This document shows positions 2,494 to 49,498 of a DNA stretch of 64,000 nucleotides, one piece after another. The notes beneath the pieces were generated by a model that was not told the origin of the DNA, made no database searches, and was given only the letters and a program-made list of their open reading frames with translations. A program made the translations under genes and the position numbers. Position 1 is the stretch's first letter. Each line of letters begins with the position of its first letter. Source of the stretch: Allorhizobium ampelinum S4 (lineage in GTDB: Bacteria; Pseudomonadota; Alphaproteobacteria; Rhizobiales; Rhizobiaceae); the NCBI RefSeq assembly GCF_000016285.1, contig NC_011989.1, forward strand, positions 3,573,001-3,637,000. Reading direction: 5' to 3'.

Positions 2494-2577
2494 CAGCTTT
2501 AAACTTTCCTGTCACGGCACGGTGCGGCAGCTTTGCTATCGCCATCGGCCTCGGAAAGTCTTGAATAACTTGCCTCG

Positions 2578-2632
2578 GCCCTTTAGCAATTTATTTTACG
2601 TGGCTGCAAGCCGGCCGGCCAAATCACCACGA
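2578..2632 (-). promoter_or_regulatory. SAM-II riboswitch upstream of metA
   Basis: On the minus strand the leader reads CGTGGTGATTTGGCCGGC, then GCTTGCAGCCACG, then an A/T-rich linker and GCTAAAGGG. This is the SAM-II architecture: the P1 stem CGTGG/CCACG, the conserved TGATTTGG, the TTGCAGCCACGT segment and the GCTAAA pseudoknot strand. Binding S-adenosylmethionine is known to close the pseudoknot and reduce translation of the downstream gene. It sits in front of metA, its usual alphaproteobacterial target. The distance of about 85 bases to the ATG is longer than in classical examples, so the way it reaches the ribosome site is not obvious. Confidence 0.93.
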
Positions 2633-2700
2633 GACAGGCGCTTATTTACGCCTTCACCCGTTACGAATCAATGAAAACATAAGCTGCACCGCAGCACGGA

Positions 2701-11362: not shown

Positions 11363-11634
11363 AATCAAGATATGATTGCAAGTGATGTGACCACTCCACC
11401 TGTTATAGCCTCAAACAGAACTGATACGCCCCAACACAACATCGATGATACGCGACACCTAAAATCGGTGTTTTTGGAAAGAGTTAAATAGCCGAGCTAA
11501 ACTATGCCAAGAAAACATCCGCATTGGCATAATTGGACATAAACAAGATCTGCCGTAGTGACATACCGGACGTATCATTCCTCTTTTCCACCCCTTGCCA
11601 GCTTACGATCGGCCAGTTACATCTGCGCCTAATA

Positions 11635-11727
11635 CTCTAACGGGGTGCTCCGATTTTGGTTCGGGGCTGAGAGGCTTACGCCAACCCGCGGAACCTGATC
11701 CGGTTAACACCGGCGGAGGGATTAGAG
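11635..11727 (+). promoter_or_regulatory. TPP riboswitch (THI element) controlling thiBPQ
   Basis: The conserved THI-box parts are present in order: P1 strand CTCTAA, ACGGGGTGCTCC, the GGCTGAGA core, ACCCGCGGAACCTGATC, then CGGTTAACACCGGCGGAGGGA and the closing P1 strand TTAGAG. Thiamine pyrophosphate binding is known to repress the downstream gene, in alphaproteobacteria usually at translation. It ends 52 bases before the thiB ATG, so the importer should shut down when TPP is plentiful. Confidence 0.97.
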
Positions 11728-11779
11728 GTGCATTTCTGCTCCCTGTCTCTCTTTCATTGTTGTTGTTCAAGGAGAGACC

Positions 11780-47511: not shown

Positions 47512-48219
47512 ATGACGAGGAAATTGGCATTCGTTGCAACGACGGGACTGATTGGTGCAGTCGTTTTTCTAACATTGGGTATCGGGATTTCAGGAGAAAA
47601 TTGGGGTGGAGCCCGGCAATTGTGGGCAACAACATCCTCCACCTGCGGATCGGTCCAATCCACCAGCCAGCAGGTCACGCTGCCCTTTACCGCCAGCGAC
47701 AGTCTCACCATCGATTTGCCGGCTTCGGTCCGCTATCAGCCTGGCGATAAGGCGGAAGTCATCGTCAGTGGCGACCCTACCCTTGTTGGGCATGTTCGAA
47801 TGGATGGCCATCGGCTGAGCCTGGATTGTCATCTGGGCTGGTCGCAATCAAAACTCGATATCAGCGTGTCGGGACCTGCGATAACAGACTGGAAACTGCT
47901 TGGAAGCGGCAACCTATCCCTATCGCACATCAACCAGCCTCAATTGCGACTGGATATCAAAGGGAGCGGCAACGTTTCCGCGACGGGAGCTGCCGACACG
48001 GTTGATGTGGACATTTCAGGGTCGGGTACCGCCCAGCTCAGGAGGCTGACGGCTCAGTCCGCACGGATCGTGATCCTTGGCAGCGGGAACGCAGACATGA
48101 CCGCGCTGAAAGATGCGGATGTGTCGATTTCCGGGAGCGGCAATGTTGATCTCTCCGGTCACCCGACATTGCGGCGTTCAGAAATCAACGGCAGCGGTCG
48201 CATCGTGCAAGCTCCTTAA
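47512..48219 (+). CDS. DUF2807 (head GIN domain) beta-helix protein
   Basis: A 235-residue protein with an N-terminal membrane segment (LAFVATTGLIGAVVFLTLGIGI) and a DUF2807-type right-handed beta-helix on the outer side. GSG-N/T repeats are visible at LLGSGNLSL, IKGSGNVSA, ISGSGTAQL, ILGSGNADM, ISGSGNVDL and INGSGRIV, spaced 18-20 residues. GAAGGA precedes the ATG. It completes the PadR-DUF1700-DUF2807 cassette and begins 33 bases after DUF1700. The family is called a putative adhesin, but its function is unproven. Confidence 0.87.
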   Translation: MTRKLAFVATTGLIGAVVFLTLGIGISGENWGGARQLWATTSSTCGSVQSTSQQVTLPFTASDSLTIDLPASVRYQPGDKAEVIVSGDPTLVGHVRMDGHRLSLDCHLGWSQSKLDISVSGPAITDWKLLGSGNLSLSHINQPQLRLDIKGSGNVSATGAADTVDVDISGSGTAQLRRLTAQSARIVILGSGNADMTALKDADVSISGSGNVDLSGHPTLRRSEINGSGRIVQAP

Positions 48220-48295
48220 CCTCGTCGAGCACTTCAAACTCGACTGCATTGTTTCGCGCCCACCCCCCAAAATTCCCTGTTCCCCTCCCGCCGAC

Positions 48296-48600
48296 AATAC
48301 CCTATGGTTGCATCAGGATTGGTCGGAACGGGGCCGGTCCCGGAGCCTAGAAAACTCCTCTACAAACGGCCGGTGTCGGCCGTTAAATGACACCCCTCAG
48401 CCATAGGTTTGTGGCTGAGGCGGTGGGCCATGTTTATATGGTCCGCTCCCACCATTCTATATGGTCGGGGAGGCCTCGACGCATGTCCAGAGCTTCGGCT
48501 TAAAGGTCGGGGCGGTCGTTTTGTAGCGATTTTTCTAGCTCCCCGGCCACCAGAGGCTCACGCCTCCGGTGGTCGATCGGTTTCCAGGTGCGGGAGGATG
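48296..48600 (+). ncRNA. Candidate structured RNA or long leader upstream of the gene at 48605
   Basis: This non-coding stretch holds many strong nested stems on the plus strand: AACGGCCG/CGGCCGTT with a GTGT loop (48365-48384); CTCAGCCA/TGGCTGAG (48396-48419) extended by CACC/GGTG; GGGCCAT/ATGGTCC (48425-48444); CCCACCAT/ATGGTCGGG (48448-48469); AGC-TTCG-GCT (48491-48500); and GGCCACC with GAGGC against GCCTC and GGTGGTC (48545-48574). GGTCGGGG at 48505 can pair with GCCTCGAC at 48473 or CCCCGGCC at 48541, which are exclusive. It ends just before the ribosome site of the next gene. It could be a riboswitch-like leader or an independent sRNA. I do not recognise the family; GC bias alone makes some stems cheap. 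Confidence 0.5.
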
Positions 48601-48604
48601 GACA

Positions 48605-49177
48605 ATGACCGATTACAATCTCTGGGCTGATCTTTTCGATACATGGCAATCCTCATCCAATTGGATCAAGGCTTTGCTGATTATCACCCCACCTGCTTTC
48701 GGATTGGGCGTGTTGGGGCTGCTGCTGCGCCACCGGGCGCGGTTGCAAACAGAGCCGCCCTTGTCAGGCCATTATCAGTGGATGAAGGAGCAGCCGACTG
48801 GAGACAGCATCGCCGCTGAAACAGTCGACATGCTCCTGCTGAATTCGCTGATGGATTTGCAAGCCCGGCTGGAGGAGGCAAAGCAAGCACTCCAGCACCC
48901 GGATCTGAAGCATTTCCAGGACAAGTGTGAAGCGATTTTGCGTTCGGAAATGCCTGAAAACAAAGAGAGGGAGAATTTGGGCGGCTCAATGAAAAGCGGA
49001 CACGCTCTCATACCCTCGTTGCCTCCCGCAGCCAGAGACAATGAAGAGATCCGCAGCCAAATTCACCAGATCATTGTCGAAAAATACCGCAACAACCGCC
49101 CCCCGGAAGAAGCGCTGCATAGTGCGCGACAGGTCTTCCTGGATCAGGATACCGAGCGGAACGCCCCGGCACCGTGA
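48605..49177 (+). CDS. Hypothetical membrane-anchored protein
   Basis: A 190-residue protein I do not recognise beyond a pattern seen in rhizobial small proteins. It has one membrane segment (WIKALLIITPPAFGLGVLGLLL, about 20-41) after a short acidic-aromatic start, then a cytoplasmic or periplasmic tail with a predicted helix (MLLLNSLMDLQARLEEAKQALQ) and a polar C-terminus ending in charged helices. GGAGGATGGACA precedes the ATG, giving a strong ribosome site. It is the first gene after the structured region and may be regulated by it. Confidence 0.75.
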   Translation: MTDYNLWADLFDTWQSSSNWIKALLIITPPAFGLGVLGLLLRHRARLQTEPPLSGHYQWMKEQPTGDSIAAETVDMLLLNSLMDLQARLEEAKQALQHPDLKHFQDKCEAILRSEMPENKERENLGGSMKSGHALIPSLPPAARDNEEIRSQIHQIIVEKYRNNRPPEEALHSARQVFLDQDTERNAPAP

Positions 49178-49232
49178 GCGATTGTATCGTGCAGAAAATC
49201 GGACTCCAGAGTACACGACACAAACGGTTCTC

Positions 49233-49439
49233 GGCTTTGCCGCCCCCTCTTGCCTCTGCCGCCACCTTCTCCCCGATGGGGAGAAGAAACCTGCGGCATC
49301 CCCTTGTGCCTTCTATGCGCAGCAAAGGCCGATAAACTCCTTTGTCCGCAGCCTTAAGATGAGGCTCAGTGTTGTCGTGTTGACCTCTTCTCCCCAGCGG
49401 GGAGAAGTCCCCGGCAGGGGGATGAGGGGGGCGAAGCCA
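49233..49439. repeat. Inverted pair of rhizobial palindromic elements (RIME-like)
   Basis: One copy at 49233-49286 (GGCTTTGCCGCCCCCTC, then CTTCTCCCCGATGGGGAGAAG in parts) recurs in reverse complement at 49386-49439. Each contains a perfect hairpin CTTCTCCCC/GGGGAGAAG with a 3-4-base loop. Such CCCCTC...CTTCTCCCC elements are abundant in Rhizobium and Agrobacterium intergenic DNA. They lie between the convergent hypothetical gene and cheB. Confidence 0.85.
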
Positions 49440-49498
49440 ATTGATCAAGTTGCGTCGTATACTATGAAAACCGAACAAGTCCGATGCTATATCTTTCT

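Follow-up and report, generated by a model that had tools for sequence, protein, structure and literature searches.

A structured RNA of c4-like plan with hypervariable recognition arms upstream of a small membrane-protein gene in Allorhizobium ampelinum S4

Described c4-type RNAs and the A. ampelinum locus

The antisense RNA C4 of phages P1 and P7 is represented in Rfam by RF01695 (cut-off 45 bits), and c4-2 by RF02944 (clan CL00128). In C4 loci, a b1-a1 arm is followed by a stem that encloses a tetraloop hairpin, a hairpin with the a' segment in its loop, and a b' linker, and a further site, b2-a2, is located at the ribosome site of the next gene; the names a1, b1, a2, and b2 follow the work on P1. 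According to the passages on c4 in two reports, the phage RNA is excised by RNase P (PMC5320573, PMC8201110). For Acinetobacter, the relevant parts of PMC5320573 describe 21 C4-like sRNAs whose a' loop varies and which undergo processing at GGW; there, incoming elements are one of two options for their targets and host targets are called potentially more likely. The family sRNA-Xcc1 (RF02221), for which Rfam gives no clan, appears as a mapped 88-nt RNA in the data of PMC2996969, is reported upstream of symE in integron cassettes in passages of PMC12444791, and is tabulated for Xylella together with C4 RNAs in a section of PMC12189769 that discusses virulence. In the mainly open-access literature on sRNA-Xcc1, C4/c4-2/c4-a1b1, and sRNAs of A. 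vitis, none of the papers listed describes the class presented here in its title or the opening of its abstract.

The window, i.e., the whole stretch of 64,000 nucleotides that was analysed, is situated on a 3.73-Mb contig of the A. ampelinum S4 genome (6.3 Mb, seven contigs). Within it, the RNA stretch is flanked upstream by a DUF2807 gene (47512-48219) and downstream by a gene for a protein of 190 aa (48605-49177), after which a cheB-like gene was identified by eye. In most other genomes of the genus that were compared, a ParA-like gene adjoins the cheB-like gene; here, about 3.1 kb separate the two (46.4-49.55 kb), a block that contains the element and is missing from the relatives compared. 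Between the membrane gene and the cheB-like gene lies a pair of inverted repeats (window 49199-49287 and 49386-49474, 73.6% identical) with GGGGAGAAG blocks. A scan for sigma-70-type promoters found none, against 0.3 expected, and is not informative here. The 190-aa protein is a predicted membrane protein for which searches of Pfam, NCBIfam, PHROGs, and PADLOC yielded nothing reaching the cut-off. Among its 48 relatives, those with names are called “hypothetical protein” or “protein kinase,” and our searches found no support for the kinase label; most named relatives come from Agrobacterium vitis and a few are labelled Allorhizobium or Rhizobium, so that the genome probably belongs to the A. 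vitis group. Its predicted structure is all-helical at low confidence (pTM 0.27).

Within the stretch, none of the Rfam families attains its cut-off, and the suggestion of the earlier note that this is not a known riboswitch holds, no riboswitch model scoring above its cut-off. Elsewhere in the window, a SAM_alpha riboswitch (2563-2640, minus strand) and a TPP riboswitch (11631-11738, plus strand) both exceed theirs. The best Rfam match within 1 kb is sRNA-Xcc1 with 22.9 bits, against a cut-off of 53 bits. With permissive thresholds, such weak matches (22.9-30.8 bits) occur in the same place in 6 of 19 sequences, and these sub-cut-off alignments span the full model (positions 1-87), comprising the closing stem and two hairpins. 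C4 itself (RF01695) gives no match at E<=10 at 47900-48900 and none at E<=0.001 in the whole A. ampelinum genome, and was detected in 20 of 150 genomes; sRNA-Xcc1 was detected in 50 of 299 genomes, 35 of these over the cut-off.

The present class is like C4 in its variable a', in a three-stem fold with a' loop and b' linker, and in an upstream a1/b1 complementary to a'/b'. However, it lacks the b2-a2 at the ribosome site of the next gene that C4 loci possess. With sRNA-Xcc1 it has in common the a1:a' helix formed with an upstream arm, whereas the third pairing copy that we find at the ribosome site of sRNA-Xcc1 loci, outside the Rfam definition, is absent here. The Group 1 C4-like sRNAs of Acinetobacter baumannii, as presented in parts of PMC5320573, resemble the present class in having many chromosomal copies, a conserved fold, and an a' loop that varies. 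Their processing at GGW is RNase P-like, and the present class has a GG start. They match the Rfam C4 motif, which the present class does not, and a covarying upstream arm or a coupled small membrane gene does not figure in these parts of the report.

Fold, covariation, and competing helices

The plus strand of 48296-48604 folds at -151.3 kcal/mol (z = -6.5), none of 100 shuffles being equally stable; the minus strand likewise folds well (z = -4.5). The stretch is thus as richly structured as the earlier note had claimed, and in the consensus fold of 26 copies 17 of 77 pairs display two-sided changes. The four segments quoted there lie where it had placed them, and the fold contains both the UUCG hairpin (about 48490-48501) and, ahead of the ribosome site, the long hairpin (48545-48574). 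The parts of the locus are the following:

48316..48340, plus strand: 5' hairpin of the element (minimum free energy fold; covarying pairs in alignment columns 39-63)
48342..48358, plus strand: b1 hairpin, with the loop 48347-48354 (CTAGAAAA) complementary to b' (fold; b:b' covariation in relatives)
48359..48371, plus strand: a1 arm, with the hypervariable part 48360-48366 (CTACAAA) (pairing tests, covariation, comparison of copies)
48367..48382, plus strand: hairpin CGGCC-GGTGTC-GGCCG, an alternative to the base of the a1:a' helix (consensus fold, covariation)
48392..48424, plus strand: long near-invariant hairpin (CAGCCATAGG/TTTGTGGCTG) of A. vitis-type copies (copies, consensus fold)
48425..48444, plus strand: hairpin GGGCCATG-TTTA-TATGGTCC (consensus fold of copies)
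48463..48472, plus strand: 5' strand of the acceptor-like stem (GGTCGGGGAG) (covariation alignment; GG start in relatives), G48463 being the predicted 5' end of a processed RNA
48473..48513, plus strand: hairpin 1, with the internal loop ATGTCCA/TTAAAG and a UUCG loop (consensus fold, covariation)
48514..48529, plus strand: hairpin 2, which presents the hypervariable a' loop (48519-48526) (pairing tests, covariation, comparison of copies)
48530..48538, plus strand: b' linker (TTTTTCTAG) (pairing test, covariation)
48539..48548, plus strand: 3' strand of the acceptor-like stem (CTCCCCGGCC) (covariation alignment)
48549..48552, plus strand: ACCA tail directly 3' of the stem (RCCA in relatives)
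48545..48574, plus strand: 3' hairpin, competing with the acceptor stem via a common GGCC (fold, consensus fold)
48592..48598, plus strand: ribosome-binding site GGGAGGA (sequence)
48605..49177, plus strand: predicted membrane protein of 190 aa (no family at cut-off)

The core (48463-48552) consists of the 10-bp acceptor-like stem with its RCCA tail, enclosing two hairpins, and the loop of hairpin 2 (a') together with the linker (b') pairs with the upstream b1-a1 arm (48347-48371). RCCA follows the acceptor stem in all 26 A. vitis-type copies, in 54 of 66 non-redundant relatives, and at 19 of 30 loci of the family, and the stem starts with GG in 61 of these 66 relatives. Processing by RNase P at GGW is a trait of C4; the GG start and the RCCA tail make this a candidate site here.

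The 66 non-redundant relatives come from a pattern search plus one viral contig (123 matches, 108 of them usable). Fifty have the compact form, and 45 of these were aligned, five with a different start or spacing being left out. When a single structure holding both alternative folds was drawn on these 45 divergent relatives, guided by their alignment, 95.0% of 1618 cells were paired, compared to 80.2±0.6% in shuffles and 30.5-48.9% in slid versions, and the covariation score was 0.484, compared to 0.205±0.009 in shuffles. Two-sided changes are found in 7 of 7 pairs of the a:a' helix (92.3% paired), in 4 of 6 pairs of the b:b' helix (92.2% paired), in 4 of 8 pairs of hairpin 1, and in 4 of 5 of the small hairpin. 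The acceptor stem is 97.6% paired and displays one-sided changes only. The number of further pair types did not go beyond shuffles (52/500). The stems are therefore conserved among relatives, the absence of which the earlier note had named as grounds for abandoning its proposal.

That note had also proposed a mutually exclusive pair of stems. The pairing of GTCGGGGC (48506-48513) with GCCTCGAC (48473-48480) is supported by covariation. However, the conserved partner of CCCCGGCC (48541-48548) is GGTCGGGG (48463-48470) and not the copy at 48505, and the strongest competing helix, formed by 48342-48371 with 48514-48542, had not been named. In nested folding, the b1-a1:a'-b' helix and the acceptor fold exclude each other, though a pseudoknot is possible. 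In lowest-energy folds of 25 leaders, the long helix forms with at least 14 pairs in 20 copies, with nine in one, and not at all in four (L005, L021, L024, L026), and the acceptor stem forms in three. When either arm is blocked in silico, the mean cost is about 18-20 kcal/mol.

Two conserved competing folds, a fixed position before a gene, and a GGCC common to the 3' hairpin and the acceptor stem are what one would expect if alternative folds of one molecule controlled translation or transcription of the membrane gene in cis, without a trans-acting RNA. However, the accessibility of the ribosome site is not altered by blocking a1 or a' in silico (means of 0.34, 0.29, and 0.30; n = 25 of 26 copies), and therefore a simple translation switch is not supported. 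Control in cis alone would also leave unexplained the turnover of recognition segments between orthologues described below, and relatives have been detected as separate small RNAs, as parts of PMC2996969 and PMC5320573 indicate; we regard such a switch as unlikely, if worth keeping in mind. A pairing of the constant loop ATGTCCA with GGACA before the start codon seemed plausible by eye but was rejected, because copies with a different ribosome site retain the identical loop. Of the two options in the earlier note, a switch-like leader or an sRNA of unnamed class, what stands is that no Rfam family reaches its cut-off, that the stems covary, and that all 26 copies precede a related gene. In contrast, the closest logic is that of the c4 antisense type, with b1-a1 arm, a'/b', and a tRNA-like stem with RCCA, rather than that of a riboswitch.

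Copies, spread, and turnover of the recognition arms

Among 60 genomes searched, our own included, the element is present in five, with six copies in A. ampelinum S4, all of them chromosomal. Of the other four genomes, all close relatives, three have five, seven, and seven loci and the fourth has one. G012 contributed six rows, two of them for one locus, and L025 was left out of the 26 copies examined as it duplicates the locus of L004. Each of these 26 A. vitis-group copies precedes a gene of one membrane-protein family; in 25 of them, 204-210 nt separate this gene from a fixed motif. At L004, an insertion lies between RNA and gene, and the L017 gene is truncated, at 70 aa. Matches to a covariance model built on the core were obtained in 79 of 297 genomes of the family and in 49 of 109 genera, with at most nine per genome. 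In our own genome, the model finds nine places at E<=1, the three weaker ones on contigs C2 and C3, which are probably plasmids. A pattern search of species genomes with the core yielded at least 119 stretches, and among the matches listed are Rhizobiaceae, Phyllobacterium, Microvirga, Rhodobacteraceae, Stappia, Cohaesibacter, and others, besides one stray record labelled Akkermansia.

Inspection by eye of the next gene at 29 loci of the family revealed the same kind of small membrane protein at 18, a RovC/DUF2285-like protein at three (one tested), a helix-turn-helix regulator at two (both tested), and something else or nothing clear at six; in several Rhodobacteraceae records, other membrane-like proteins seem to come next. 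As the downstream gene differs between loci and lineages, conservation is stronger for the RNA than for the gene. One sub-class, in which the core is followed by a GCGGGGGCGCACCGC-like hairpin, comprises L214, L215, and L216 on our own contigs C2 and C3 as well as L077, L078, L083, L084, and L087, and in some cases has RovC/DUF2285-like or helix-turn-helix regulators downstream. At L114, L161 (both Microvirga), and L185, the 3' acceptor strand has given way to a different sequence (CTTGTATGTTGATTGG), the same in all three, which may reflect a common insertion or decay. One viral contig carries a copy of the alphaproteobacterial type (L207:1006-1047), with a gene for phage lysozyme (PF00959) nearby; this copy precedes a short membrane-like ORF that begins with GTG, and no third target was seen.

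The copies are dispersed over two large contigs, and two further contigs carry weaker relatives, as might be expected if RNA and gene formed a mobile unit whose structure serves transposition. However, 25 of the 26 copies have at least one flank in common with a copy in another genome, the element forms part of the larger block of about 3.1 kb, and no mobility gene was found among four ORFs checked. Owing to the shared flanks and the position inside the block, a mobile unit is not supported, and we hold it to be very improbable. A metabolite riboswitch, which a structured leader ahead of a gene might bring to mind, is still harder to entertain, since no riboswitch model matches at the locus, the most variable of 50 positions checked lie in the a' and b' segments, and the downstream gene varies by lineage.

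The a' cores are all different among the six copies of our own genome, and 7/7, 6/7, and 5/5 differ in the other three genomes, so that within the four multi-copy A. vitis-group genomes every copy has its own a' except for one pair. Orthologues diverge in the same segments. Between the arms, the window copy is identical to that of G012 at 150 of 153 positions, compared to 2 of 7 for a' and 4 of 9 for the a1 arm; for G015, the figures are 145 of 155, 3 of 7, and 5 of 9, while the G033 orthologue (152 of 153) has identical arms. Among 36 cross-genome pairs of loci with matching flanks, a few of which rest on a short shared repeat, an exact a' core is common to eight; five further pairs have a common core but flanks that do not match. 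L001 compared with L004, together with L010, L012, L013, and L016, illustrates two traits, namely the joint replacement of both recognition arms, the intervening 150 nt being 98% identical, and the recurrence of a core where flanks do not match. One long conversion tract does not simply explain these.

Despite this turnover, the arms of each copy fit each other. In each of three sets, none of 5000 permutations made a' fit the upstream arm as well as in the actual pairing, and the same was true for b' in one set (0/5000); the limits of the core in these tests were set after the alignments had been seen. The own duplex is about 10 kcal/mol better on average than crossed arms, and it is the best in its row for 19 of 25 copies. 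As own pairing is best for just 2 of 7 copies in G033, and for 14 of 25 in four genomes when the variable segments are considered alone, specificity is not strict. With an overlong A' segment, a first result was weak both for sRNA-Xcc1 (5/30 upstream and 7/30 downstream above the 95th percentile) and for the alphaproteobacterial loci (557/5000 permutations upstream), and the tests were redone with the variable core only.

Pairing sites and proposed mode of action

For a', a third pairing site in cis was sought at three places in two sets (close to the ribosome site, beyond it in the downstream direction, and farther upstream) and downstream only in a third set. As many as 2397, 1953, and 367 of 5000 permutations reach the own score of a' against the own downstream region, and 2289 of 5000 do so for b' near the ribosome site in one set. 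Thus, no group-level third target copy was found in cis for a' (three sets) or b' (one set), though in the third set (367/5000, p about 0.07) a few downstream sites may be real. As a positive control, the equivalent test did find the third copy in C4 and in sRNA-Xcc1 loci. For 19 of 20 fetched C4 loci, pooled, both a' and b' fit the upstream arm and also the downstream region of their own locus (0/5000 in each of four tests). For sRNA-Xcc1 (30 loci fetched from 91 listed matches, each above the cut-off), the variable core scores 17.3 against the own upstream arm, compared to 12.8±0.42, and 16.0 against the own ribosome-site region, compared to 11.6±0.47 (0/10000 permutations each), although single loci without a visible downstream site occur. 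These sRNA-Xcc1 loci (L028-L057) display a three-part pairing plan of upstream arm, loop, and ribosome site of the next gene, like c4. At L035:2890-2958, a c4-2 RNA below the cut-off (34.8 of 41 bits) shares the locus of an sRNA-Xcc1 copy.

The gene following sRNA-Xcc1 is a phage regulator by Pfam in 6 of 6 loci tested, which had been chosen for such an appearance, and in the viral copy L208, the domains being Bro-N, KilA-N, P22_AR_N, or Rha. As the closest relatives precede phage regulators and a' is hypervariable with no target in cis, the copies might be chromosomal orphan c4-type RNAs whose a'/b' segments are directed against superinfecting phages or plasmids, an arms race driving the turnover of a'; incoming elements are one of the two options for Acinetobacter in the portion of PMC5320573 concerned, host targets being potentially more likely. 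However, no target was identified in any phage, the covarying a1 arm would require a separate explanation, and PADLOC matched none of the three downstream proteins tested. On balance, defence of this kind seems rather improbable.

Comparison of the copies and their relatives shows a core made up of the acceptor-like stem, hairpin 1, the a' loop hairpin, the b' linker, and the RCCA tail, an upstream b1-a1 arm covarying with b' and a', and a hypervariable a' core. The class is c4-like in this plan; by score it is no member of RF01695 or RF02221, and it is without their cis target. The reading we favour, with some reserve, is that the stretch represents a processed, copy-specific c4-type antisense RNA in the leader of, and coupled to, the small membrane-protein gene. 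By analogy with phage c4, RNase P would cut out the core of about 90 nt (48463-48552), which may then act in trans via a'/b'. In the full transcript, the b1-a1:b'-a' helix would usually keep the core in the other fold. The likeliest action would be copy-specific control of the own transcript, because the own b1-a1 arm is the only cognate site found: the processed RNA might bind the b1-a1 arm of sibling transcripts, whose core would thereby be freed to mature. Additional targets in trans are possible. Several findings speak against this reading: a2/b2, by which c4 exerts its action, is lacking in cis; the scores are far below the cut-offs of C4 and sRNA-Xcc1; blocking a1 or a' in silico leaves the ribosome site equally accessible; specificity is not strict; four of 25 leaders do not form the long helix in their lowest-energy fold; and the acceptor stem has no two-sided changes.

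Many copies of the class are coupled to small membrane proteins. It is conceivable, though speculative, that alphaproteobacterial genomes maintain repertoires of c4-type RNAs, with arms replaced jointly and recurring at non-orthologous loci, as a fast-diversifying system of RNA recognition (self/non-self), possibly against mobile elements and with the membrane protein as effector. For sRNA-Xcc1, discussed in accessible parts of the literature as linked to virulence or plant colonisation, a concrete and testable function emerges, as its loop matches the ribosome site of the adjoining gene, which is several times a phage regulator. Under the favoured reading, the antisense principle of c4, described for phages and Gammaproteobacteria, would also operate in a large alphaproteobacterial class outside Rfam. 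Genomes carry this class in several copies, its recognition segment is hypervariable but remains complementary to a partner within the element, and a new family of small membrane proteins comes with it. What makes the class interesting is the fast paired turnover of two distant recognition arms, together with the link to these proteins.
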